Made by a program: the position numbers and the translations under genes. 64,000 nt of DNA from Halosimplex pelagicum. GTDB taxonomy: Archaea; Halobacteriota; Halobacteria; Halobacteriales; Haloarculaceae. The stretch is from assembly GCF_013415905.1 (NCBI RefSeq), contig NZ_CP058909.1:4960001-5024000 (forward strand), read 5' to 3'. Each line of letters begins with the position of its first letter. Position 1 is the stretch's first letter. Under the pieces are notes generated by a model. That model saw nothing but the letters and a program-made list of their open reading frames with translations, was not told the origin of the DNA and did no database searches. Shown piece by piece: positions 41,229-57,298 of this stretch.

Positions 41229-42356
41229 ATGAACCGACGGAGATTCCTCCACTCCGCGACGGGCGCCGCGGCGGTCGGCCTCGCCGGCTGTCTCGGCGAC
41301 GGCGGCGGTGACGCGACCGACACCGCCGCGACCGACACCGAATCGACGCCCGCCCCGACCCGGTCCCCGACCGACGGCCCGACGCCCACCTCGACGCCCG
41401 AGGGCCCCAGCGGCGTCTACGTCCAGTCGTTCCGCGAGACGATGGTGATGCCCGGGACGGCGACCGCGGGCGGGGGCGACTACCGCTTCGCCCTGCTGCT
41501 CGCGGTCCCTCACCGCTTCTGGACGGTCAACCTCGACGAGCGCTCGGTCACCGAGATCGAGGAGGGCGACGACCTCCACCTGATGGCGACCGTCTGGGAC
41601 CCCGAGACCCGGACGGTGCTCCCGGACTCGAACCTCTCGGTGGAGATCACCCGCGACGGCGAACTGGTCACCCAGGAGGTCATCTACCGGATGCTCTCCC
41701 AGCGGATGGGCTTTCACTACGGCGCGAACTTCCCGCTCGACGGCGACGGGACCTACACCGCGCGGCTCAGCGTCGGCGGCGTGAGCGCCCGCAAGACCGG
41801 CGCCTTCGAGGGTCGCTTCGAGGACGGCGCGACCGCGACCGTCGAGTTCGAGTGGTCCAAACGGGTGCGCGAGCGGCTCAAGACCGAACAGCTGGACCAG
41901 GCGGGCCAGCGCGGCGCGCTGCGGCCGATGGAGATGGGCGAGGTGCCCCAGCCCCGCGCGCCGAAGCCCGCCGATCTCCCCGGCACTGTCCTCGGCACCG
42001 GCCGCAGCGACGACGCCAAACTCGTCACGACCCAGCTCCCCGCGGCCGACGCCGGCCGGTTCACCGACGGGCAACCCTACCTCGCGGTCTCGGCGCGGAC
42101 GCCGTTCAACCGGCTGGTCCTCCCGGCGATGGGGCTGTCGGCGTCGGTCGCCCGCGACGGCGAGACGGCCTTCGAGGGGGCGCTCGAACCCACGCTCGAC
42201 CCCGAACTCGGCCACCACTACGGCGCGGCGCTGCCCGAGCCCGTCGAGTCGGGCGACGAGGTGACCCTCCGGGTGGGGACGCCGCCGCAACTGGCCCGCC
42301 ACGAGGGCTACGAGCGGGCGTTCCTCGATATGGAGCCGGCGACGATCACCGCCTGA
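41229..42356 (+). CDS. Tp34/P19-like metal-associated Tat lipoprotein
   Basis: A 375-residue exported lipoprotein: NRRRFLHSATGAAAVGLAGC gives a Tat signal and lipobox Cys21, followed by a Thr/Pro-rich linker. The mature part has two halves. The first (about 65-205) resembles the Tp34/P19 family of periplasmic iron or copper binders: ETMVMPGTATAGG, LAVPHRFWTVN, LHLMATVWDPE, and MGFHYGANFPLDGDGTYTARLSV. The second half repeats the theme more weakly (LVLPAMGLSASV, LGHHYGAALPEPVESGDEVTLRV). Met and His residues at these points could bind metal, but this is inference. It forms an operon with the next gene, one base apart. Confidence 0.75.
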   Translation: MNRRRFLHSATGAAAVGLAGCLGDGGGDATDTAATDTESTPAPTRSPTDGPTPTSTPEGPSGVYVQSFRETMVMPGTATAGGGDYRFALLLAVPHRFWTVNLDERSVTEIEEGDDLHLMATVWDPETRTVLPDSNLSVEITRDGELVTQEVIYRMLSQRMGFHYGANFPLDGDGTYTARLSVGGVSARKTGAFEGRFEDGATATVEFEWSKRVRERLKTEQLDQAGQRGALRPMEMGEVPQPRAPKPADLPGTVLGTGRSDDAKLVTTQLPAADAGRFTDGQPYLAVSARTPFNRLVLPAMGLSASVARDGETAFEGALEPTLDPELGHHYGAALPEPVESGDEVTLRVGTPPQLARHEGYERAFLDMEPATITA

Positions 42357-43418: not shown

Positions 43419-45647
43419 TTAGAGGTAGTCGCCCTCGACGGTCACCGTGACGGACTCGCCGTCGACGACGAGGTCGTAGTCGCCGGCCTCGACGCGGTGG
43501 CCGTCGCCGGGCGCGTAGACGCCCAGGTTCTCGACGGGGACTTCGACGGTCACCGTCGCCCGTTCGCCGGCGTCGAGGTCGACGCGCTCGAACGCCTGGA
43601 GGCGACGCTCGGGCATGACGAGCGTCTTCGACTCGGTCGCGCTGTACACCTGGACGACCTCGGACCCGCGGCGGTCGCCGACGTTCTCCACCGTCACGTC
43701 GAGTTCGACGGTGTCGCCGGGCCCGACGACATCCGCGTCGACCGAGAGGCCGCCCGTCTCGAAGGTCGTGTAGCTCAGCCCGTGACCGAACGGGTAGAGC
43801 GGGTCGTAGGAGTCGGGATGCTCGGAGTCGCCGATGGGACGGGGCTGGTGGAGGTGGTCGTGATGCACGTCGACCTGCGTGCCCGAGCGCGGGACGGTGA
43901 CCGCGAGTCGACCGCTCGGGTTGTTCTCGCCGACCAGCGTCTCGGCGACGGCCTTGCCGCCCATCGTGCCGGGGAAATAAGCCATCAGCACGGCCTCGGC
44001 CCGCTCGTCGAGGTGCTCGACCGCCAGCGGGCGGCCGGTGACGAGGACGCCGACGACCGGGGTCCCGGTCTCGGCGACGGCCTCGACGAGCTCCTGCTGG
44101 GCCTCGCCCAGCGCGATCCGCTCGCGGGTGGGGAACTCGCCGGTCTCGGTGCGGGGGTCGCCCGCACCGAACTCGTGGAGGTACCACCCCTCGCCGAGCG
44201 CGAGGACGGCCACGTCGGCGTCGGCGGCCTTCTCGGCCGCCGCGTCCACGTCCAGTCGGTCGCTGTGGGTCGTCCCCTGCTCGTAGGTCACCTCGCCGTC
44301 GACGTGGGCGCGGATCTCCTCGGCGATCGTCGTCCCGTCGACGTGCTCCTCGCTCTCGACGGACCACCCGCCGACCTGGCTGACCAGGTCGTCTGCGTTC
44401 GGTCCGCCGACGAACACGTCCTCCTCGCCCGAGAGCGGCAGGCAGTCGTCGTTTTTCAGCAGCGTCATCGCCTCGCGGGCGGTGTCCAGGGCGGCCGCCT
44501 GGTGGTCGTCGGCCCCGACCGTCTCGACGGCCTCCGCTTTCTCGACGTAGGGGTCCTCGAACAGCCCCATCCGGAACTTGCGTTCGAGGACGCGTTCGAC
44601 GCTCGAATCGAGGACCGACTCGGCCAGGTCGCCCGACTCGACGAGGTCGACCAGCTCTTCCTGTTCGAGGTCGTTGCCGACCGAGGCCACGTCGAGGCCG
44701 GCGGTTCGGGCGTCGTAGGTCGCCTCACGCAGGTCCGCCGCGGTCTTGTGGTCGTCGGTGAGGTGGCGGACGCCGCCCCAGTCCGAGACGATGGTGCCGT
44801 CGAAGCCCAGGTCGCCCCGGAGCAGGTCCGTGAGCCAGCGCTCGGAGCCGTGGACGGGCTCGCCGTTGATGGAGTTGTAGCAGGGCATCACCGACTCGAC
44901 GCCCTCGTCGAGTGCGGCCTCGAACGGCGGGACGAACGTGTTCCGGAGCTTGTACTCCGAGACGTCGACGGGTGCGGCGTCCTCGCCGCGCTCGGGCTCG
45001 CTGTAGGCCGGGAAATGCTTCGCCGTCGCGACGACGGTGTCGTCGGCCTCCAGCCCGTCGCCCTGGTACCCGCGCACCTTCGCGGCGGCCATCTCGGCGA
45101 CCAGCCGCGGGCTCTCGCCGAACGTCTCGAACACGCGGCCCCAGCGGGGGTCCCGGCCCACGTCGCAGGTCGGCCCGTAGTTCTGGTGGGCGCCGGTGGC
45201 CGCGACCTCGGTCGCGGTGACCCGTGCGCCGGCCTCGACCAGTTCGGGGTCCCACGTCGCCGCCGCGCCCAGCCCGTTCGGGAACACCGCCGAGCCGGCG
45301 ACGTAGGCGTGGCCGTGGACCGCGTCGACGTTGAAAAAGAGGGGGATACCGAGCCGCGTCTCCTCGGTCGCGACCTCCTGCAACTCGTTGACGATGTCGA
45401 CGATCTCGCCGACTTCCGTCCCCGCCGAGCCGCCCCAGCCGAACGGCGCCGCACAGCCGAGGTGCTTCTCGCGGACGAGCTCCGCGACTTCCTCGACGTC
45501 GACCGCTCGGTGCATCTGGCCGGCCCACGTTCCGACTAGCTGACCGGCCTTCTCTTCGACCGTCATCCGATCGAGCAGATCCGAGACCCGCCGCGAGACC
45601 GGGAGATCCGGGCGTTGATACTCGGGATCCGCGTCACTCGATGGCAT
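43419..45647 (-). CDS. Glycoside hydrolase family 3 beta-glucosidase
   Basis: A 742-residue GH3 enzyme releasing beta-linked glucose or xylose from oligosaccharides. The TIM-barrel domain (about 15-330) includes FFNVDAVHGHAYVAG, KHFPAYSEPERGED and the nucleophile motif TIVSDWGGVR. The alpha/beta sandwich (about 360-600) has LLKNDDCLPLSG, VLALGEGWYLHEFGAGD and YFPGTMGGKAVAETLVG; the fibronectin-III-like end has YPFGHGLSYTTFE. No signal peptide, so it is cytoplasmic. Start is ATG 45647; ATGTTTATGT at 45671-45680 on this strand is a TATA 28 bases upstream, so the transcript is leaderless. Divergent from the HEAT-repeat gene. Confidence 0.95.
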   Translation of the reverse strand: MPSSDADPEYQRPDLPVSRRVSDLLDRMTVEEKAGQLVGTWAGQMHRAVDVEEVAELVREKHLGCAAPFGWGGSAGTEVGEIVDIVNELQEVATEETRLGIPLFFNVDAVHGHAYVAGSAVFPNGLGAAATWDPELVEAGARVTATEVAATGAHQNYGPTCDVGRDPRWGRVFETFGESPRLVAEMAAAKVRGYQGDGLEADDTVVATAKHFPAYSEPERGEDAAPVDVSEYKLRNTFVPPFEAALDEGVESVMPCYNSINGEPVHGSERWLTDLLRGDLGFDGTIVSDWGGVRHLTDDHKTAADLREATYDARTAGLDVASVGNDLEQEELVDLVESGDLAESVLDSSVERVLERKFRMGLFEDPYVEKAEAVETVGADDHQAAALDTAREAMTLLKNDDCLPLSGEEDVFVGGPNADDLVSQVGGWSVESEEHVDGTTIAEEIRAHVDGEVTYEQGTTHSDRLDVDAAAEKAADADVAVLALGEGWYLHEFGAGDPRTETGEFPTRERIALGEAQQELVEAVAETGTPVVGVLVTGRPLAVEHLDERAEAVLMAYFPGTMGGKAVAETLVGENNPSGRLAVTVPRSGTQVDVHHDHLHQPRPIGDSEHPDSYDPLYPFGHGLSYTTFETGGLSVDADVVGPGDTVELDVTVENVGDRRGSEVVQVYSATESKTLVMPERRLQAFERVDLDAGERATVTVEVPVENLGVYAPGDGHRVEAGDYDLVVDGESVTVTVEGDYL

Positions 45648-45670: not shown

Positions 45671-45756
45671 ACATAAACATTTCGAGGTGAATGTCCGCGC
45701 GAGCCGTCCGCGTGAGTCGAACGGTCACCCGTGGTATCGATATCCACACGTATTTG
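45671..45756. promoter_or_regulatory. Back-to-back promoters of GH3 and HEAT genes
   Basis: On the minus strand ATGTTTATGT (45671-45680) with an upstream CTCGAA-type BRE serves the GH3 gene at 45647. On the plus strand CGTATTTG (45749-45756) lies 25-32 bases before ATG 45781 of the HEAT gene. Both fit leaderless initiation. Confidence 0.6.
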
Positions 45757-45780
45757 TCGCTCGACGGGCTGGAGTTCGGT

Positions 45781-46686
45781 ATGACCGACGAGGAGTCCGC
45801 ACCACTGGAGGGGGTAGACACCGGCTCGGAAGCGCTCGACGACGAGGACCGCGACCAGATCCGCGAGGCGCTCACGTCCGAGACGAACATCAGGCGAAAC
45901 GAGGCCGCCCAGGCGCTGTCGCAACTCGCCGAACGGGACCCCTCGACGGTGCGTCCGTTCGTCGACGACCTGCTCCCGCTGCTCGGCGACGACCGCAACG
46001 TGATCGCCCAGCAGGCCGGGACGGCACTGCTGGGCGTCGTCCGGGAGCACCCCGAGGACCTCGCCGGCTCGGTGCCCGCGGTCTTCGACCTGATCGAGCG
46101 GGACCTCAACTCGCTGGAGCTGCTCGGGACCCAGATCGTCGTGCAGGTCGTGCTGGAACACCCGGAGGAGGTGGCGCCGCACCTCGACCGCATCGTCGCG
46201 GTGCTCGACGGCCGCTCGCCGGCCTACGAGGCCACGGACGGCATCGACATGGTCGACGACGAGGAGGCCCGCGAGACCATGCTCGAACACGACAAGCAGG
46301 AACACCAGCTGCTGATCCAGTCCCAGGGTCGGCTGGCGAACGTGATCACCGCCGCCGCCGAGGGCGACCCAGACGCGGCCGCCGACCACGTCGACGCGCT
46401 CGTCGGGCTGTTCGACACGCCCGACGTGACGGTCGTCGGCGCGGCCGTCGACGCCGTCTCCGAGATCGCACAGGCCGACCCCGACGCGGCCGCCGGGGCC
46501 TTCGACGCGCTGGTCGCCTGTCTCAACCACACCAACGACACCGTCCGAGCCCGCGCCGTCCGCGCCCTCGGCTACCTCGGGGACGACCGCGCGGTCGAGC
46601 CGCTCGAACACCGCGCGAGCGTCGAAACCGACGAAGACCTCGCCGACCTCGCCGCGGAGACCGCCGCGTTCCTCGACGAGTCCTGA
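45781..46686 (+). CDS. HEAT-repeat protein
   Basis: A 301-residue protein made of helical repeats. Units of about 37 residues are visible, for example NIRRNEAAQALSQLAERDPSTVRPFVDDLLPLL, NVIAQQAGTALLGVVREHPEDLAGSVPAVF and TVRARAVRALGYLGDDRAVEPLEHRA. There is an acidic N-terminus and an inserted segment with DMVDDEEARETMLEHDKQEHQLLIQSQ. HEAT solenoids scaffold protein complexes; no enzyme motif is present and its partner is unknown. ATG 45781 is chosen over an in-frame ATG at 45691 because a TATA (45749-45756) sits just upstream and the extra 30 residues are basic. Confidence 0.85.
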   Translation: MTDEESAPLEGVDTGSEALDDEDRDQIREALTSETNIRRNEAAQALSQLAERDPSTVRPFVDDLLPLLGDDRNVIAQQAGTALLGVVREHPEDLAGSVPAVFDLIERDLNSLELLGTQIVVQVVLEHPEEVAPHLDRIVAVLDGRSPAYEATDGIDMVDDEEARETMLEHDKQEHQLLIQSQGRLANVITAAAEGDPDAAADHVDALVGLFDTPDVTVVGAAVDAVSEIAQADPDAAAGAFDALVACLNHTNDTVRARAVRALGYLGDDRAVEPLEHRASVETDEDLADLAAETAAFLDES

Positions 46687-47069: not shown

Positions 47070-49313
47070 TCAGTCGCCGGCGGTCTCGGCGCCGAAGTCG
47101 TTCGAGACGTCGTCGGTGTCGAACTCCTCGTCGGGGCCGATCCGCTCGGCGCCTTCGAGGGGTTCGCTGTCCCAGTACTCGTGGTCCGGGTCCTCCCGGA
47201 AGCACGCGGCGCCGTTGCCGTCGCCGCCTTCCACGTCGTACAGCGGCGGCTTCTCCTCCGTGCAGGCCTCCCTGGCGACGGGACACCGGGTGTGGAACCG
47301 GCAGCCGCTCGGCGGGTCGACCGGGTCCGGCACGTCGATCGACCGCATCGGCGGCTCGCCCGCCTCCACCGCGTCGAGCTGGAGGGTCGGGGTCGCCCAG
47401 CGCAGCACCTTCGTGTAGGGGTGGCGCGGGTCCTGGATGAGCCGCTCGGCGGTGCCGACCTCGACGATCTCGCCGAGGTACATCACCGCGATGCGCCCGT
47501 CACCGTGCTCGGTGAAGTAGCGGGCGTTCGAGAGGTCGTGGCTGATGAACAGGAAGGAGGTGTCGAACACGTCCTGCAGTTCGAGCATGAGGTCCATCAG
47601 CTCGACGCGCAGGCTCACGTCGACGGCGCTGATGGCCTCGTCGGCGAGGATCGCGTCCGGGTTCATCAGCAGCGCGCGAGTCAGCGCGACCCGCTGTTTC
47701 TCTCCCCCGCTCAGCTGGTGGGGGTAGCGGTCGGCGAAGTCCCCCGGCGGGTTCATCCCCACGCGGTCCAGCAGCGAGTAGATCCGGTCGCGCCGTTCGT
47801 TGGGGCTGATGTTCGGGTGGGTGTGGTGCAGCGGCTCCGAGAGGATGTCGACGATCCGGCGGTTCGGGTTCAGCGACGCGCCGGGGTCCTGGTGGATGAT
47901 CTGCAGCGACTGGCGGATCTCGTCGTAGGGAATGTCCCCGTCGCCGTCTTTGGCCTCCCAGATGTCCTGACCGCGATACTTGACGCTGCCGCCGGTCGGC
48001 CGCTGCAGGCCGATGGCGGTCTTGCCCAGCGTCGTCTTCCCGCAGCCGGACTCGCCCAGCAGCGCGACCACGTCGTTCTCGTAGATGTCCAGGTCGACGC
48101 CGTCGACGGCCTTGACGACCTCGGGGTCGTCGCCGAAGATGTCGAACAGGCCCTGGTCCTCCTCGAAGTGGACCTCGACGTCGTCGAGTCCGAGGACGGG
48201 TTCCTCGTCGGTCCGCGCGGCCACGTCGCGGCCAGCCCCCGCCTCGAACTCGGGGTCGGCCGTGCTCTCACCGTAGTTGAGGGTGATCTCCTCGCGGGCC
48301 TGCTCCCAGTGGTGACAGGCCGTCTGGTGGTCGTCTCCGATGTTCTCGAGGGGCGGGTCGTCGCTGACGCACTCCTCGGTCGCGAGCGGACACCGCGGGT
48401 GGAAGCTACACCCCTCCGGGACGTTGACCGGCGCGGGGCCCTCGCCCTCGATGGGCTGCATCTCCGACAGCGGCGCGTCGAGGTTCGGCGTCGCGTTCAA
48501 CAGCGCTCTCGTGTAGGGGTGGCCCGCGTCCGAGATGATCTGGTCGCGGGTGCCGACCTCGACGAACTGGAACGCGTAGATGATGCTCATCCGGTCGGCC
48601 AGCGCCGTGATCAGCGGCAGGTCGTGCGTGATGAACGCGAGCGTCAAGTCGTAGCTCTGCTGGAGGTCGTTCAGCAGCATCAGGATCGACCGCTGCATCA
48701 GCAGGTCGAGCGCCGCCGTCGGCTCGTCCATCACGAGCACCTCGGGTTCGAGCACCAGGCTGAGCGCGATCAGCGCGCGCTGTTGCATGCCGCCCGACAG
48801 CTCGTGGGAGTAGGAGTCGAGGACGCGTTCCGGTTCGAGATACAGGTCCTCGAGCAGTTCGCGAGCGAACTCCATCCCCTCGTCGACGTTCGCGTCGTGG
48901 GCCTTCAGCGTCTCCTTGAAGTGCGTCCCGACCTTCATCGTCGGGTTGAACGAGGACATCGCTCCCTGGAAGACCATCGAGATCTCCTCCCAGCGGAACT
49001 GCCGGAGTTCCTCGTCGCTCTGTTCGAGCACGTCGATCGTCCGGCCGTCGGTGGAGTGATAGAGGATCTCCCCGCTGAGAACCCCGGGGTCGGGGATCGA
49101 GTCGAGCAGCGCCGACGCGAACATCGACTTGCCCGAGCCCGATTCGCCGACGATCCCCAGCACCTCGTCGCGTTCGATGTCGAGGCTCACGTCGTCGAGG
49201 ACGTACGTCTCGCCGCCGTCGAAGGTCACCTTCGCGTCGGTCACCTCGACGATCGGGTCCTCGACGGTCGACTGTACCGCCGCGTTCGCCGTCGATCGTT
49301 GATCGGTTGCCAT
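47070..49313 (-). CDS. Fused two-domain ATPase of a peptide-type ABC importer (DppD-DppF like)
   Basis: A 747-residue protein joining both nucleotide-binding domains of an Opp/Dpp-type importer. NBD1: Walker A GESGSGKS (56-63), signature SHELSGGMQQRA, Walker B LVMDEPTA, then the oligopeptide-type C-terminal cysteine region CSFHPRCPLATEEC. NBD2 starts near 375: Walker A GESGCGKT, signature HQLSGGEKQRV, Walker B ILADEAIS and a matching cysteine region CRFHTRCPVAREAC. These cysteines in Dpp-like ATPases can hold an Fe-S cluster. It begins directly after the stop of the permease gene, last in the operon. The fused form means only one ATPase polypeptide is needed. Confidence 0.94.
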   Translation of the reverse strand: MATDQRSTANAAVQSTVEDPIVEVTDAKVTFDGGETYVLDDVSLDIERDEVLGIVGESGSGKSMFASALLDSIPDPGVLSGEILYHSTDGRTIDVLEQSDEELRQFRWEEISMVFQGAMSSFNPTMKVGTHFKETLKAHDANVDEGMEFARELLEDLYLEPERVLDSYSHELSGGMQQRALIALSLVLEPEVLVMDEPTAALDLLMQRSILMLLNDLQQSYDLTLAFITHDLPLITALADRMSIIYAFQFVEVGTRDQIISDAGHPYTRALLNATPNLDAPLSEMQPIEGEGPAPVNVPEGCSFHPRCPLATEECVSDDPPLENIGDDHQTACHHWEQAREEITLNYGESTADPEFEAGAGRDVAARTDEEPVLGLDDVEVHFEEDQGLFDIFGDDPEVVKAVDGVDLDIYENDVVALLGESGCGKTTLGKTAIGLQRPTGGSVKYRGQDIWEAKDGDGDIPYDEIRQSLQIIHQDPGASLNPNRRIVDILSEPLHHTHPNISPNERRDRIYSLLDRVGMNPPGDFADRYPHQLSGGEKQRVALTRALLMNPDAILADEAISAVDVSLRVELMDLMLELQDVFDTSFLFISHDLSNARYFTEHGDGRIAVMYLGEIVEVGTAERLIQDPRHPYTKVLRWATPTLQLDAVEAGEPPMRSIDVPDPVDPPSGCRFHTRCPVAREACTEEKPPLYDVEGGDGNGAACFREDPDHEYWDSEPLEGAERIGPDEEFDTDDVSNDFGAETAGD

Positions 49314-50342
49314 CTAGATCATCCCCTTCGTCGTCGTCTCTTCGTCCTCTACGGTCGATTCGGACTCGCCGGCCATCCGGGTACGGACCCGCGGGTTGAA
49401 CACCCGGTCGAGGCCCTGTCCCATGAGGATCAGCGCCAGCGCCAGGCCGACGATGAAGATCATCGGCGCGATCAGCCAGTGGGCCGCCTCGGGCACGAAC
49501 AGCGCGCCGTTCTCCTGGGCCCGCGCCAGCGTCACGCCCCACGTCGGCTCGCTGTAGGGCAACACGCCCAGGAAGAACAGCCCGACCGACGCGAAGATGG
49601 TGTAGCGGGCGGCGAACACGAAGTTCACCGTCACGTACGGCATCAGGTTCGGGATCACGTCCTTCCGGAGGATCCGGAAGGTGCCCGTCCCCATCGTCCG
49701 GGAGGCCTCGACGTAGCTGTCCTCGCGGATGGTCAGCACCTGCGAGCGCAGCGACCGGCCCAGCCCGGCCCAGTAGTTGATCGTCAGGATGACGCCGACG
49801 AAGACCGGGTTCTCCGGACTGAACGTGATCGCGAGGATGATCACCAGCGGGAGCCCGGGGATCGCCATGAAGAAGTCCGAGATGGACATCAGGACCCTGT
49901 CGACCCGCCCGCCTTTGTACCCGGCGAGCGTCCCGACGAGGACCGCGAGCCCGGTCGCCCAGACGCCGCCGGCCAGCACCATCAGCATGATGTCCGGCGT
50001 CGCGTGGACGAGCTCCGCGGTCAGGTCCACGCCCGAGTAGGTCGTCCCGAGCGGGTACGACCAGTTCTCGAACATCCCGAGCAGCCGGGGGGCCTGACTC
50101 GACGACGGTTCGCGCCACAGTCCGAGGACGGAGACCGCCGTGATCGCCAGGTAGACGCTGAGAAGCAGGAGCCCCATCCGGGTCCGCAGGTCGGCCCAGG
50201 CGACGACGGCGGGCTCGTAGATGCTCCGCTCGTAGAACTCGCGGAGCCGGTCCCCCCTGGTCATGTCCGCGCCGGTACTCTCGCTCTGCCAGTCGAGCCC
50301 CTCCGTAGGGGTGTCCGATTCAGTATGCTTCACTTGAATCAC
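49314..50342 (-). CDS. ABC importer permease, DppC/OppC-like
   Basis: A 342-residue inner-membrane permease. An N-terminal helix (LLLLSVYLAITAVSVLGL) precedes the binding-protein-dependent transport domain with five further helices; the EAA motif that contacts the ATPase reads YVEASRTMGTGTFRILRKDVIPN. The start is GTG 50342 or GTG 50333; 50342 overlaps the end of the upstream permease gene by 23 bases, showing tight coupling. It pairs with the 50320-51324 permease to form the translocation channel. Confidence 0.92.
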   Translation of the reverse strand: MIQVKHTESDTPTEGLDWQSESTGADMTRGDRLREFYERSIYEPAVVAWADLRTRMGLLLLSVYLAITAVSVLGLWREPSSSQAPRLLGMFENWSYPLGTTYSGVDLTAELVHATPDIMLMVLAGGVWATGLAVLVGTLAGYKGGRVDRVLMSISDFFMAIPGLPLVIILAITFSPENPVFVGVILTINYWAGLGRSLRSQVLTIREDSYVEASRTMGTGTFRILRKDVIPNLMPYVTVNFVFAARYTIFASVGLFFLGVLPYSEPTWGVTLARAQENGALFVPEAAHWLIAPMIFIVGLALALILMGQGLDRVFNPRVRTRMAGESESTVEDEETTTKGMI

Positions 50343-51324
50343 CCGAACTGATCCGCGGGTCGATCATGCTGTAGGTCAGGTCGGCGACGTACACGCCGAT
50401 GACCAGCGCCACCGTGATGACGAGGAACGTCCCCATCATCATCGGGTAGTCGTTGGAGTTGACGGCGTCCAGCAGGTACAGCCCCAGACCCGGATAGTTG
50501 AAGATCTGCTCCAGGATCACGGTGCCGCCGAGCCGGAAGCCCAGCAGCAGCAGGAACCCGGTGTACATCGGCAGGATTGCGTTGCGGGCGACGTATCGGA
50601 GCGCGATCCGGCTGTCAGAGAGGCCCCGCAGTCGCGCGACCTCGACGAAGTCCTCGCCCAGCACCTGGATGCTGTTGCCCCGCATCGCGAGCGCCTGCCC
50701 GCCGATCCCCACGATCGTGTACGACAGTATCGGCAGCGCGCCGTAGCGGAAGACGCTGATCGCGTAGTCGAGGCTCCAGTGGTTCTCGATGTTGGGGTTG
50801 GCCGTCCCCGACGCGGGGAACAGCCCCCAGCGGTACGACATGAACAGCAGGAGCAGGATCGCCGCCACGTAGAAGGGGATCGACATCCCCACGATCGACA
50901 GCGAGGAGGCGATGGTGTCGAACTTCGACCCCTCCCAGTAGGCCTGGATGGCGCCCAGGACGATCCCCACAGCGAACATCAGTATCGTCGACACGACGAC
51001 GATGAATATCGTCCACGGCGCCGCCTGGGCCACTACCTCCGTGACGGGGCGGCTGTACTGGATCGACGTGCCCAGATCGAGCTGGACCGCCGATATCATG
51101 TAGTTGATGTACTGTTCGTGGAGCGGCGCGTCCGGCCGGACGTTCTGCAGGTTCTCGATCTGCTGGTTGACCTGCTCGGCCGGAATGCCCTGTTGAAGCA
51201 ATTGCGTCCGCAGTAGCGTGAACGGTCCTCCCGGGAGCAGACGGATCAGCCCGAAGGTGAGCGACATGACCCCGAAGATCGTGACGAACACCCGTGCTGT
51301 CCGCCGCACGTAGTAGTTAACCAT
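50320..51324 (-). CDS. ABC importer permease, DppB/OppB-like
   Basis: A 334-residue membrane permease with six helices. The N-terminal VNYYVRRTARVFVTIFGVMSLTFGLIRLLPGGPF is the hallmark of the DppB family, with a large extracytoplasmic loop (residues about 35-95), and the EAA motif reads FVEVARLRGLSDSRIALRYVARNAILP. ATG 51324 is the start. A minus-strand GTAAATAC at about 51339-51347 may be a second promoter for the permease-ATPase part, separate from that of the binding protein. Confidence 0.93.
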   Translation of the reverse strand: MVNYYVRRTARVFVTIFGVMSLTFGLIRLLPGGPFTLLRTQLLQQGIPAEQVNQQIENLQNVRPDAPLHEQYINYMISAVQLDLGTSIQYSRPVTEVVAQAAPWTIFIVVVSTILMFAVGIVLGAIQAYWEGSKFDTIASSLSIVGMSIPFYVAAILLLLFMSYRWGLFPASGTANPNIENHWSLDYAISVFRYGALPILSYTIVGIGGQALAMRGNSIQVLGEDFVEVARLRGLSDSRIALRYVARNAILPMYTGFLLLLGFRLGGTVILEQIFNYPGLGLYLLDAVNSNDYPMMMGTFLVITVALVIGVYVADLTYSMIDPRISSGDSSEAY

Positions 51325-51438: not shown

Positions 51439-53298
51439 TTACTCCTGGGCCGTCAGCAGGCCCTCTCGCGGCCACCAGAACGGGGGCCACTTGATACCGC
51501 GAGCGGGGTCGCCCTCCTCGACGGAGATGTCCCACTCGTCGGTGGTGACCCACGACTGCTCGAACTTCGAGACCAGCGACAGCATCGGCAGGTCGTAGTT
51601 GTTGTGCCAGGCGGCCTCCTGGACGATCGGCCGGGCGTCCTCGTTGGTCGGCTGCTGGCCGATCTGTTCGACCCGTTCGAGCGGGTTGAGCGTCATCTCG
51701 CCGTCGCCGCTCATGGCCGGGATGGTCTGCTCGGACTCGGTGTCGTAGTTGTGTCCGCCGTTGAGCGCGTCCAGCGCGAGCTGGTGGCGCAGCGGGAAGT
51801 ACGGGAACGCCGACCGGGCCTGACCGGGCAGCCAGTAGAACGTCCCGACCTTGAAGTTGCTCTCGATGAACGCGCCCTGCCAGTCGCTGGTCGGTCGGCT
51901 AGCGACCGACATGTCGAAGCCGAACTCGTTGAGTCGGTCGACGACCGTCTCGGTCATGGTGGTGAAGTCGGTCCACCCGCCGGGCGTCAGGTACTCGGCG
52001 CTGACGGCGTTGCCGTCGGGGCTGGTCCACGTGCCGTTCTGCTTCGAGTAGCCGGCGTCTTCGAGGATCTGGGTCGCCTCCTCGGTGTTGGTCGAGTCGA
52101 CGCCGTAGTCCTCGAAGTTGCTCTTGGTGTCACCGAGCCAGCCGTCGATGTCCTTCGGGGCGATCCCGCAGGGGACCGACGCCGGGAACTTCGTGCGCGG
52201 ACCCGCGTTATCGACCAGTTCCTGGCGGTTGACGATGTGTGCGATCGCCTGTCGGACCGCACGGTCACCGAAGATGGGGTCCTCGTGGTTGAAGATCATC
52301 CCGTAGCCCCACTTGGCCGGGATGGTCTGGACCTCCATGACGTAGTCCTGGAAGGCGTTGACCGTCTGGGGCGCGGCGAACATGCTCCAGACGCTGTCGA
52401 AGCGCTTGCCGCCCGTGGTGAAGTCCTGCTGGGGGGCGCTCGCCTCCTGATAGGAGTCGAACCGGTAGGTCGAGAAGTTGACGTTGTCGATGCTGTGGAA
52501 CTCCTCGTTGCGCTCGAAGTTCCACTGCTGCTGGTTCTTGTCGACGTACGCCCACGCGCCGCTCGTGATGACCTCGGTGTCGCTGTCCTCCCAGTTCCAG
52601 GTCTGGATCTCGGAGGCGTCGGCGTCGGTGAACTGCTCGAAGGCCGCCGCCGGCGTGTCGATCCACATGTTACCCAGCTGGTGTTTGACCATCACGGGGT
52701 TGGTCGGGCCCGTGAGGTTCAGCTGGAACGTGTAGTCGTCGACGACCTCGGTGCTGTCGACGTAGCCCCAGATGGCGCTGCCGATCTTCTCGAGGATCTG
52801 GAACTGCACGTCGATGTCCTCGGTCGTGACGTCGCTGCCGTCGGACCACGAGAGGTCCTCGCGGAACGTCAGCGTGACCGTCTCGCCGTCGAACTCCCAG
52901 TCGTCCAGCGCCGCGAGCTGGAACTCCTGGGTCTCGAAGGAGTACGCGGCGTAGCGGTCGAACGCCAGCCGCCGCGCGGGCTCCGAGGAGATCTGCGTGT
53001 TGTGCGTGTTGAGCGTCCGGTTGGTCGGGTCGGCCTGGAGACCGCTCGCGTGGACCTGGTCGACGACGTTCGTGCTACCGTCGCTGCCGTCGGACCCATC
53101 CGAGCCGTCCGAGCCGTCCGAACCGTCGGAGCCGTCAGAACCGTCCGATCCGTCGGAGCCGTCGGAGCCGGACCCGTCTGTCGGTGTCCCGTCCCCGCCA
53201 CCACACCCTGCGAGTGCAGCGGCACCGGACGCTCCTGCGAGTGTCAGGAACTTCCGGCGGTCTACGACATCGCTGTACTCATTGGTACTGTCAGACAT
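51439..53298 (-). CDS. ABC importer substrate-binding lipoprotein
   Basis: A 619-residue solute-binding protein of the SBP_bac_5 (peptide/nickel/oligosaccharide) family. A Tat lipoprotein signal (VDRRKFLTLAGASGAAALAGC) is followed by a linker of about ten Ser-Asp-Gly repeats, then the binding fold: FREDLSWSDGSDVTTEDI, FNHEDPIFGDRAVRQAIAHIVNRQEL and ATQILEDAGYS. The ligand could be a peptide or an oligosaccharide; family members cover both. A minus-strand TATA (CTTTATTA, 53325-53332) lies about 30 bases upstream. It is first of the four-gene transport cluster, with 114 bases before the permease gene. Confidence 0.94.
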   Translation of the reverse strand: MSDSTNEYSDVVDRRKFLTLAGASGAAALAGCGGGDGTPTDGSGSDGSDGSDGSDGSDGSDGSDGSDGSDGSDGSTNVVDQVHASGLQADPTNRTLNTHNTQISSEPARRLAFDRYAAYSFETQEFQLAALDDWEFDGETVTLTFREDLSWSDGSDVTTEDIDVQFQILEKIGSAIWGYVDSTEVVDDYTFQLNLTGPTNPVMVKHQLGNMWIDTPAAAFEQFTDADASEIQTWNWEDSDTEVITSGAWAYVDKNQQQWNFERNEEFHSIDNVNFSTYRFDSYQEASAPQQDFTTGGKRFDSVWSMFAAPQTVNAFQDYVMEVQTIPAKWGYGMIFNHEDPIFGDRAVRQAIAHIVNRQELVDNAGPRTKFPASVPCGIAPKDIDGWLGDTKSNFEDYGVDSTNTEEATQILEDAGYSKQNGTWTSPDGNAVSAEYLTPGGWTDFTTMTETVVDRLNEFGFDMSVASRPTSDWQGAFIESNFKVGTFYWLPGQARSAFPYFPLRHQLALDALNGGHNYDTESEQTIPAMSGDGEMTLNPLERVEQIGQQPTNEDARPIVQEAAWHNNYDLPMLSLVSKFEQSWVTTDEWDISVEEGDPARGIKWPPFWWPREGLLTAQE

Positions 53299-53824: not shown

Positions 53825-55186
53825 ATGTCACCGGACAACGAGCGTGGCATCGGCCGTCGCGAGTTCGTCGCGGCGGCCGTCGCTATCGGTGGGTTGAGCG
53901 CGCTCTCTGCGTGTCAGGAACGGGAACGGGACCTGGTGGGGACGGCCTCCGACGCGACCGAGGGAACGGACGGGGGCGGGCGCCCCCGTACGGGAACGGA
54001 CACGGAGTTCGACCTGTCGGTTCCGTCGGGCGAGCCCGACGCGCTGTCCAAGCGCCAGCACGCCTGGAACTACGCCGTCGTCCACGACGCCCACGGCAAC
54101 ACCGTCATCCCCCAGCAGCAGCTGATCCTCGGGCTCTCCTACGAGGGGTCGAGCCCGCCGACCGAGGCCGAGCGCGAACAGGTCGAGGGCGCCCTTCGCA
54201 CCCTCGAAGAAGCCTTCCAGTGGGGCACCGGCGGGAACCCCTCGGCGTCGTTCACCCAGGGGCTGCTCTTCATGCTCGGCTACTCGGCCAGCTATTTCGA
54301 GCGGACCGGCGGCGTCCCCGAACAGCTGGTCCCCGCGGAGGACGTGCTCCGCGAGGTCGGCGAGGACCCCTCGAAGGCCGACGGCTTCGACGCCGTCCTG
54401 CTCATGAACAGCGACATCGGCTCGGTCGTCATGGCCGCCGAGGCCGCGCTGTTCGGCGAGATCGAGCAGGTCAACGGCGTCGGCGTGACCGACACCTTCG
54501 AGGGCGTCTTCTCGAAGGCCGACCGCCGGAGCGGCATGGTCGGCAAGGGCATCCCCGCCGACGTGCTGGACAACGACTCGATCCCCGAGTCGGCCCCGCT
54601 GTCGATGGGGTTCAAGTCCGGCTACCGCGACAGCCAGCCCTCCGAGGACGGGATCACCATCCGCGAGGGACCGTTCGCCGGCGGGACCACGATGGCCGTC
54701 TCGCGGCTCGGTATCGACCTCGACCGGTGGTACGACCAGCCCCACGAGGAGCGGGCCGCCGAGATGTTCTGCCCCGCCCACGGCACCGACGAGATCGGCG
54801 AGATCGGCGAGAAGCTCGGCGCCGAGAGCGGGATCACCGAGGAGAACGCCGAGAGCGTCGAGGAGTTCGCCGAGGAGTACGGCCGCGTCGGCCACACCCA
54901 GAAGGTCGCGCGCGCCCGCGACGACGAGTTCGTCCCCACGATCCTCCGGCGCTCGGAGGGGGTCGCGACGGACGCGGCCCAGGGGACGGAGTTCAACTTC
55001 ACGGGCCTCCAGCGCCACGTCGACGACTTCGTCGAGACCCGCAAGGCGATGAACACCGACGAGTACGACGACGACATTCCCGCCGAGGACCACGGCATCG
55101 TCGACTACCTGGAGACCCACCACCGCGCGACGCTGCTCGTGCCGCCCCGCCCCCAGCGCGCACTCCCGACGGGGATCGACGCATGA
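53825..55186 (+). CDS. Tat-exported DyP-peroxidase-like lipoprotein (DUF7405-like)
   Basis: A 453-residue exported protein. GIGRREFVAAAVAIGGLSALSAC is a twin-arginine lipoprotein signal, lipid attached at Cys30. The mature part aligns by eye with B-type dye-decolourising peroxidases such as EfeB: LSMGFKSGYRDS near residue 261 stands where GFxDG is usual, GGTTMAVSRLGIDLDRWYD matches the strand-helix after it, VGHTQKVARARDD near 357 matches the heme-ligand SHIRxANPR, and ILRRSEGVAT with EFNFTGLQRH matches the distal-Arg LRRGYSY and LFVCYQ segments. The proximal His and distal Arg are kept but the catalytic Asp is Ser. ATG 53825 preferred to GTG 53819. Stop overlaps the next start (ATGA). Confidence 0.75.
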   Translation: MSPDNERGIGRREFVAAAVAIGGLSALSACQERERDLVGTASDATEGTDGGGRPRTGTDTEFDLSVPSGEPDALSKRQHAWNYAVVHDAHGNTVIPQQQLILGLSYEGSSPPTEAEREQVEGALRTLEEAFQWGTGGNPSASFTQGLLFMLGYSASYFERTGGVPEQLVPAEDVLREVGEDPSKADGFDAVLLMNSDIGSVVMAAEAALFGEIEQVNGVGVTDTFEGVFSKADRRSGMVGKGIPADVLDNDSIPESAPLSMGFKSGYRDSQPSEDGITIREGPFAGGTTMAVSRLGIDLDRWYDQPHEERAAEMFCPAHGTDEIGEIGEKLGAESGITEENAESVEEFAEEYGRVGHTQKVARARDDEFVPTILRRSEGVATDAAQGTEFNFTGLQRHVDDFVETRKAMNTDEYDDDIPAEDHGIVDYLETHHRATLLVPPRPQRALPTGIDA

Positions 55187-56922
55187 CAGGCCGGGACACG
55201 CGGCGGACCGCCGCGCTGGTCGCCGTCGCGCTGGCCCTCGTCGTCTCCGGCTGTTCCGTCGCCCCCGGAAGCCTCGACGACGGGGACGGCGAGGCGCCGA
55301 GCGCCGAGATCGGGTTCGTCGACGCGACCGACGAGGCCGGCCTCGCGTACAACGGGACCGGCACCGGCGCCGCCGGCAACGGCAACAACGGCGTCTTCGC
55401 CGCCGATATCGACAACGACGGCTGGGAGGACGTCCTCGCCGTCGGCGGCGAGCGCCCCGCCCTCTTTCGCAACACCGGCGGCGCCTTCGAGCGCACGGGC
55501 GAACTCTCCGGGCTCGACCGCGAGTTCAAGAGCGCCGCGTTCGTCGACTACGACGGCGACGGCTGGCGCGACCTGCTCCTGCTCGCCAAGGACGGCCCCG
55601 CGGTCGCCTTCCACAACGACGAGGGAAGCTTCGAGCGGACCGATATCGGCCTCGGCAACTTCACGCACCCGCTCGGCGCGGCCGCCGCCGACTACGACGG
55701 CGACGGCGACCGCGATCTCTTCGTCTACCAGTCGGGCGACTGGGGCGACGAGCGCCCGGCGGGCTACTTCTCGCCCAACAAGTCCATCGCCGACGACAAC
55801 GGCAACCCCAACGTCCTCTTCGAGAACACCGGCGAGTCAGGCGCGGATCGGTTCGAGCGCGTCGACGGCGCGGGCATCACCGGCGACCGCTGGAGCCTCG
55901 CGGCCAGTTTCGTCGACCTGACCGGCGACGGCCGCCCCGACATCCACGTCGCCAACGACTACAACAACGACACCGTCTACCTGAACCGCGGTGACGGCAC
56001 CTTCGAACAGATCCAGCTGGGCGGCGCCACCGCCCGCAACGGCATGGCCTCGGAGGTCAACGACGTGAACCGCGACGGCCGCCCCGACGTGTTCGTCACC
56101 AACATCGACATCCCGGCCTCCCGGGAGACGCTCTCGCCCGACCGCTACGAGCGGCTCAAGCGGTTCCTCCAGTACGTCATCCACTCCGGCCGGACGAAGG
56201 GCAACACCATGCTCGTCAACCAGGGGAACGGCGAGTTCGTCGACCGCGCCGGCGCCTACGGCGTCCGCGAGGGCGGCTGGGGCTGGGCCGCCAGCGTGAC
56301 GGACCTCGACAACGACGGCGACCGGGACCTGCTGCACACCACCCAGACCGTCGTCGCGCTCAACCAGTCCGACCCCGTCTACACCCTGCCGATGGTCTGG
56401 GAGCGGAGCGGCGACAACTTCACCCGCCTCGACGCCTCCGAGCGCGGGTTCGCCGAACAGGACGGCCGCGGGATGGTCACCGTCGACTACGACCGCGACG
56501 GCGACCGCGACGTGATCATCGCCGACTACCACGGCCCCTACGCCGTCTACGAGAACACCGTCCGGTCGCCCGCCGGAGAGGAGCGGGGCGGGAACGCGAC
56601 GGCGGCCGGTGAGTCGGCCCCCGCCGGCGCCGTCCAGTTCGAGATCGTCGACGGGAACGGGGCGGTCGCCGTCGGCGCCAACGCGACCGTCACCGTTGAC
56701 GGCCGGGAGACGGCCGTCTGGCAGAACTCCCGCAGCGACTTCGTCTCGCAGGGCTCGCCGGTCACTCACGTCGGCCTCGGCGACGCCGAGGAGGCGACCG
56801 TCGACGTGACCTGGCCCGACGGCGCCGAGCGGACGGTCGACCTCGACGCCGACCGACGCTACCACGTCGGTCCTGACGGCGTCGAGGTGGTCGCCAACTT
56901 CTCCGCTGCGCCAGCGAACTGA
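55183..56922 (+). CDS. CRTAC1-like VCBS/UnbV lipoprotein
   Basis: A 579-residue cell-surface protein. The N-terminal DTRRTAALVAVALALVVSGC is a Tat-like lipoprotein signal with Cys24. The mature protein is a beta-propeller of FG-GAP/VCBS repeats with seven calcium-binding DxDxDG-type loops (DIDNDGWEDV, DYDGDGWRDL, DYDGDGDRDL, DLTGDGRPDI, DVNRDGRPDV, DLDNDGDRDL, DYDRDGDRDV). The C-terminus is an ASPIC/UnbV domain (VGLGDAEEATVDVTWPDGAERTV). Such CRTAC1-like proteins are thought to bind partners or surfaces; none has a firm function in archaea. Translational coupling (ATGA) to the DyP-like gene suggests a shared complex at the membrane. Confidence 0.88.
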   Translation: MTGRDTRRTAALVAVALALVVSGCSVAPGSLDDGDGEAPSAEIGFVDATDEAGLAYNGTGTGAAGNGNNGVFAADIDNDGWEDVLAVGGERPALFRNTGGAFERTGELSGLDREFKSAAFVDYDGDGWRDLLLLAKDGPAVAFHNDEGSFERTDIGLGNFTHPLGAAAADYDGDGDRDLFVYQSGDWGDERPAGYFSPNKSIADDNGNPNVLFENTGESGADRFERVDGAGITGDRWSLAASFVDLTGDGRPDIHVANDYNNDTVYLNRGDGTFEQIQLGGATARNGMASEVNDVNRDGRPDVFVTNIDIPASRETLSPDRYERLKRFLQYVIHSGRTKGNTMLVNQGNGEFVDRAGAYGVREGGWGWAASVTDLDNDGDRDLLHTTQTVVALNQSDPVYTLPMVWERSGDNFTRLDASERGFAEQDGRGMVTVDYDRDGDRDVIIADYHGPYAVYENTVRSPAGEERGGNATAAGESAPAGAVQFEIVDGNGAVAVGANATVTVDGRETAVWQNSRSDFVSQGSPVTHVGLGDAEEATVDVTWPDGAERTVDLDADRRYHVGPDGVEVVANFSAAPAN

Positions 56923-56935
56923 ACGGGGGAGTCGC

Positions 56936-57298
56936 TCAGACCCGTTCGCTGTGCATGATCACGTCGTCGCCGCGGCCCGGGCTCCAGACGATCCGGAGGG
57001 TCGACCCCTCGCTCGCCTGGACGACCGTGCTCTCGGACTCGGTCACCGGGTCGCTCCAGTCGGTCGCTCGGCGGTAGCTCTCGACTCGAACGGTGAGGTC
57101 GTCGGTCCGAACCGGGTCGCCGCCGGCGTGGGCGATCCGGACGGCTGTGTCGTTGACTCGCTCGACCGTCCAGTTCACCTCGGGCGCGTCGGTTCCCCCG
57201 CTCCCGCCCGCGATGTTGAGCCCCACCACGACCAGCCCCCCGACGACGGCCACCACGATGGCCGCCCCGACCAGATTCAGCATCGTGTCCCCGTCCAT
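56936..57298 (-). CDS. Type IV pilin-like protein
   Basis: A 120-residue single-span protein. The N-terminal helix MLNLVGAAIVVAVVGGLVVVGLNIAG is like archaeal pilin or archaellin cores, and the body VNWTVERVNDTAVRIAHAGGDPVRTDDLTVRVE has the beta-sandwich pattern of the haloarchaeal Pilin_N family. The usual class III signal (charged residues then KG or RG before the helix) is not clear; the start reads MDGDTML. It may be a minor pilin or simply a pilin-like membrane protein. Start is ATG 57298. It converges on the CRTAC1-like gene, 13 bases apart. Confidence 0.75.
   Translation of the reverse strand: MDGDTMLNLVGAAIVVAVVGGLVVVGLNIAGGSGGTDAPEVNWTVERVNDTAVRIAHAGGDPVRTDDLTVRVESYRRATDWSDPVTESESTVVQASEGSTLRIVWSPGRGDDVIMHSERV

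Follow-up and report, generated by a model that had tools for sequence, protein, structure and literature searches.

Two overlapping genes of the window (by which we mean the whole stretch of 64,000 nucleotides analysed here), named A and B, form a real unit, the former encoding a Tat lipoprotein of the Pfam family DUF7405 and the latter a CRTAC1-family lipoprotein; their positions, together with those of the neighbouring genes, are reported in Table 1. The comparison of protein families supports A as a distant relative of the DyP/EfeB haem proteins, and we suggest, with a probability of roughly 0.4, that A and B might represent a surface haem-protein/propeller module accessory to an oligosaccharide-uptake locus. 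The observation is not a matter of chance, since the pair is maintained in the orthologues, A matches DUF7405 along the whole model (386.6 bits, cut-off 27.1, positions 1-347 of 347) and the neighbour is kept wherever the best relatives of A are found. Indeed, the co-occurrence search across Halobacteria suggested in the earlier note, carried out on 392 genomes by comparing the positions of A and CRTAC1 matches, revealed a CRTAC1 homologue adjacent to A at 40/40 of the best window-type loci (E <=2e-113, 38 genomes), where window-type refers to the DUF7405 branch to which A belongs.

Table 1. Genes and sites of the A-B locus, in window coordinates
Feature	Position	Strand	Description
GH3 glycosidase	43419..45647	-	742 aa; Glyco_hydro_3 (237 bits), C-terminal and Fn3-like domains
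HEAT-repeat protein	45691..46686	+	HEAT Pfam matches; recurrent neighbour (cluster 6, 11 loci)
Fused double ABC ATPase	47070..49313	-	ABC_tran x2, oligo_HPY x2
ABC permease	49314..50342	-	BPD_transp_1
ABC permease	50320..51324	-	BPD_transp_1
SBP_bac_5 (Opp/Dpp-type) solute-binding protein	51439..53298	-	PF00496 (136 bits); divergent from A
Gene A	53825..55186	+	453 aa; DUF7405 (PF24152) Tat lipoprotein, DyP/EfeB-related
Ser265 codon of A	54617..54619	+	TCC, in GFKSG; replaces the catalytic Asp235 of EfeB
His357 codon of A	54893..54895	+	in VGHTQK; counterpart of the EfeB proximal haem ligand His329
Arg375-Arg376 codons of A	54947..54952	+	in ILRRS; counterparts of EfeB Arg347 (distal) and Arg348
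Stop/start overlap of A and B	55183..55186	+	ATGA
Gene B	55183..56922	+	579 aa; CRTAC1-family lipoprotein, seven FG-GAP repeats and UnbV_ASPIC

Gene A starts with the ATG at 53825 (the alternative being a GTG two codons upstream) and stops with the TGA at 55184-55186, and gene B extends from the ATG at 55183 to a stop codon ending at 56922. This confirms the description, given in the earlier note, of two exported lipoproteins encoded on the plus strand and overlapping by ATGA. The same overlap (-4) recurs at many other same-strand loci, and at the remaining ones the two genes are 0 to 3 bp apart. Upstream of the pair, conservation across Halosimplex is only patchy, and no motif is claimed.

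The anchoring of both proteins at the cell surface is likewise borne out. A carries a Tat motif and a lipobox (RRxF...LSAC), which were found at 42/42 pair loci and whose residues Arg11-Arg12 and Cys30 are invariant in a 39-member DUF7405 alignment; B has the lipobox LVVSGC and, across the pair loci, its N-terminus shows a lipobox in many cases and an apparent uncleaved anchor in others. The idea that Tat export might hint at a bound cofactor had to be abandoned, since haloarchaea use Tat as a mainstream route of export (PMC3068169), and the neighbouring SBP_bac_5 protein also possesses a Tat-type signal (RRKF), followed by a lipobox. As for B, Pfam recovered the seven-repeat propeller family and the UnbV domain that had been recognised at first sight (FG-GAP_3, 140 bits in seven stretches; one UnbV_ASPIC, 43.5 bits; both over the Pfam cut-offs), and its match in the PDB is Cartilage acidic protein 1 (9etn, E 1.3e-9). 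Just downstream of B, on the opposite strand, a small archaeal pilin-like protein is encoded (56936-57298), with a Pilin_N match exactly at the cut-off.

DUF7405 is a Pfam family of unknown function, yet it is present in 346 of the 392 Halobacteria genomes (about 88% of the sample); in a phylum-wide sample it was found in 26 of 197 genomes, all of the same order. The orthologues of A in H. carlsbadense and H. salinum share with it 93% and 73% identity, respectively, and in both B lies directly behind. In a more complete set of 42 loci, which partly coincides with the 40 mentioned above, the two genes are on the same strand in the order A to B in 29 cases, convergent in 10 and divergent in three (one of them 9 kb apart); hence, A and B need not share one transcript. 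A few CRTAC1 homologues lack an adjoining window-type A (e.g., in genomes G062, G160, G309, G313, and G286). The DUF7405 proteins linked to CRTAC1 form one clade (48 vs 44 sequences, SH-aLRT 100) in a quick tree with midpoint root and no bootstrap, and CRTAC1 is beside none of the 25 DUF7405 loci of the other branch. The evolutionary distances of A and B correlate (r = 0.89, n = 40), as do those of the SBP (0.83-0.89 in 22 loci), which implies a tendency of the locus to be inherited as a unit; no relatives were found in viral contigs. The pairing appears undescribed, as proposed, and no mention of DUF7405 was found in the literature searched; however, the novelty does not extend to the family, which already exists in Pfam and some members of which are publicly annotated as "Dyp-type peroxidase domain-containing protein". 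No NCBIfam model matches A.

The relationship between A and DyP was analysed by comparing the profile of the 39-member DUF7405 alignment with that of ten DyPs, including E. coli EfeB. The hhalign comparison of the two gave a probability of 96.2 (E 2.4e-9, 285 columns), with values of 96-97 and E from 2e-9 to 2e-11 over all the comparisons with DyP/EfeB. When the signal region was removed, the probability was 96.1 and the score 73.6, whereas the decoys (30 with shuffled columns, one reversed) did not exceed 18.4 and the profiles of chlorite dismutase, SBP5, GH3, permease, ATPase, HEAT, and TrmB did not exceed 24.8; chlorite dismutase was therefore rejected as a closer family. The window clade alone reached E 5e-6 against the DyP profile. 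Moreover, Dyp_perox_C is matched by 15 of the 39 DUF7405 members (E up to 1, the best being 4.4e-6), and its sole match in 120 genomes of the phylum, above the curated cut-off, is a DUF7405 protein (genome G004); protein A taken alone matches no Dyp Pfam model. The PDB search with the single sequence of A gave no match, and that with the family profile gave weak DyP matches (E about 0.35-0.44); the top match of the latter, to BurrH repeats, was rejected, being aligned through the signal-peptide region only. An AF2 model of A, built from three sequences only (the window protein and two orthologues), had a pLDDT of 31. On the whole, the DyP assignment, made by eye in the earlier note, is sustained at the level of sequence, from which a DyP-type fold of A might be expected. 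Among DyPs, A is closest to the A-class; nevertheless, we file it as a DyP-related DUF7405 protein and not as a DyP peroxidase, since its counterpart of the GxxDG motif does not contain the catalytic Asp.

The residues of the putative haem site are in agreement with this relationship. Position 357 is His in 39/39 sequences, positions 375 and 376 are both Arg in 39/39, and these residues are kept in the exceptions checked, among them a Streptomyces member; EfeB W282, F368, and F379 correspond to W302, F392, and F402 of A, each invariant in the 39 sequences. In the column of EfeB D235, 22 of them carry Ser and the other 17 Ala, and no Asp was found at this position among about 95 DUF7405 sequences examined; the loss of Asp is therefore a trait of the DUF7405 family. 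Thus, the pattern originally noticed in A (retention of the proximal His and distal Arg, loss of Asp) is confirmed, and the conservation of His and Arg among homologues turned out to be complete; the Asp to Ser change is real but, being common to the whole family, not special to A.

In the window, the genes follow one another in the order GH3, HEAT, ATPase, two permeases, SBP5, A-B, which recurs in two other Halosimplex genomes and embeds a complete Opp/Dpp-type ABC importer set (SBP_bac_5, two BPD_transp_1 permeases, oligo_HPY ATPases). Out of 38 pair loci, 23 harbor SBP_bac_5, 25 the permease, 27 the ATPase, 14 GH3, 9 TrmB, and 7 IclR, whereas both SBP5 and GH3 are found at 0/25 of the other DUF7405 loci; the stretches around the two sets are of similar, not identical, length, and the counts are not independent, since the loci share ancestry. 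Over 41 pair loci, an SBP_bac_5 homologue, commonly divergent from the pair, occurs at 24 and is absent from the stretch read at 17 (the ABC ATPase at 11); in some loci, genes for Peripla_BP_6 proteins or chemotaxis receptors, or still other genes, are present. Wider flanks add GH3 genes in further genomes, two pair loci harbor a GH67 alpha-glucuronidase, and the TrmB and IclR regulators are of the sugar type. This neighbourhood points to oligosaccharide uptake, where the term "oligosaccharide" is what we infer, since importers of the SBP_bac_5 type can transport peptides as well and the GH3 family is broad.

Some further features of these loci are worth reporting. After its lipobox, the SBP_bac_5 protein of the window has an extended linker of Gly-Ser-Asp repeats, which Pfam scores as collagen-like, although below the cut-off. 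At loci L158, L159, L161, and L162, a methyl-accepting chemotaxis receptor gene is near or adjoins the DUF7405 gene, which suggests a sensing role there, and another conserved setting of the pair (L156, L157, and L160) includes genes for an alpha/beta hydrolase, an LPG-synthase-like membrane protein, and sulfatase-family proteins.

How might the pair work? It is possible that A and B operate at the uptake locus as one module of membrane-anchored proteins on the cell surface. A, having diverged from the DyP/EfeB lineage, would most likely still bind a porphyrin via His357, Arg375 being placed distally, and, as its catalytic Asp is replaced by Ser, would probably perform poorly as a classical H2O2 peroxidase. 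B, a presumably calcium-loaded propeller, would most likely dock A and/or bind glycan. Together, they might prepare or capture a glycan-linked substrate for the SBP_bac_5 importer and GH3; for example, aromatic or reducing groups might be slowly oxidised in a haem-dependent reaction. The more specific scenario, in which an Asp-less DyP branch was recruited with CRTAC1, the latter replacing an iron-transport partner, to serve in haem-dependent oligosaccharide capture at the surface, is more tentative and, taken as a whole, somewhat unlikely.

The iron release envisaged in the earlier note would imply that A, as an EfeB-like protein, acts in iron or haem acquisition, either by extracting the iron of haem or by oxidising Fe(II), and that B serves as a receptor that depends on calcium. 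This idea is in agreement with the family link of A to EfeB and with the finding that a DUF7350/Iron_transport lipoprotein gene lies near 17 of the 25 DUF7405 loci of the other branch, adjacent or overlapping in about half. In addition, a gene for a DUF7350/Iron_transport-like lipoprotein is located 12 kb from the pair (41229-42356, with a DUF7282 protein behind), and is likewise placed in two other Halosimplex genomes. However, none of 38 window-type loci has an iron-transport lipoprotein in the stretch read, the neighbours being rather the ABC importer and the glycosidase, and neither EfeU nor EfeO was found among the recurrent ones, so that no EfeUOB operon is recognisable. Iron release thus fits the other DUF7405 branch, and for the window branch we consider it unlikely. 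It is also rather improbable that haem was lost, leaving A as a DyP-descended scaffold and the pair as a non-enzymatic platform for docking or substrate binding: every DUF7405 member lacks the catalytic Asp, and CRTAC1-type propellers often serve binding, but it is not obvious why a mere scaffold should require His, Arg-Arg, and Trp302 to stay invariant over such a great divergence.

An adhesive role is a frequent guess for FG-GAP/UnbV proteins, and the earlier note had mentioned cell adhesion. The pair might then be devoted to adhesion or surface assembly, unrelated to transport, its neighbours reflecting gene-island inheritance only; the 17 loci without SBP5 speak in favour of this, but the strong neighbour enrichment over the other DUF7405 loci, observed across several Halobacteria families, makes it very improbable. 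An active surface peroxidase or redox sensor, using a replacement base and acting on aromatics or peroxide, is a quite unlikely reading, although more credible than adhesion. Glu274, invariant in the 39 sequences, could be the substitute base, and in the B-class DyPB of R. jostii the formation of Compound I is affected only slightly when Asp is lost (PMC6153280); however, DyPs of the A- and C/D-classes cannot do without Asp (PMC6153280), and A is closest to the A-class. Since the need for Asp differs by DyP class, peroxidase activity is not readable from the sequence. On the basis of the ABC importer/GH3 neighbourhood, we judge that the pair is more likely to be an accessory surface module for the uptake of oligosaccharides than to act in iron release or adhesion.

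What is new here is the A-B pairing and its gene neighbourhood. Whether DyP/EfeB proteins have a role beyond peroxidase chemistry is a standing question (PMC7611857), of which a uniformly Asp-less DyP relative represents a natural test. Furthermore, the different partners of the two DUF7405 branches (an iron-transport-like lipoprotein vs CRTAC1), together with the ABC importer, lead to a specific hypothesis that can be tested by gene knock-out.

A comparable layout has been described for the hydrazine-synthase-homologue clusters (PMC12758564), where a haem-enzyme-related set also lies beside CRTAC1 and ABC substrate-binding genes; those clusters are bacterial and their haem protein family is unrelated, so the likeness concerns the layout only. 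With EfeB and the A-class (class I) DyPs, A has in common profile homology over most of its length, the proximal His, the distal Arg-Arg, the Trp and Phe positions, and the Tat signal, and it differs from them in having Ser/Ala for the Asp of GxxDG, in being a lipoprotein, and in having no adjoining EfeU/EfeO. Within DUF7405 (PF24152), A is a full-length member, the window clade scoring lower (387 bits) than the two paralogues of the other branch (534-559 bits) and being set apart by its CRTAC1 partner. Lastly, B shares with the CRTAC1/ASPIC-UnbV proteins the seven FG-GAP repeats and the UnbV domain, with a distant match to 9etn, and it is distinguished from them by being archaeal, by its lipid or TM anchor, and by its link to a DUF7405 gene.
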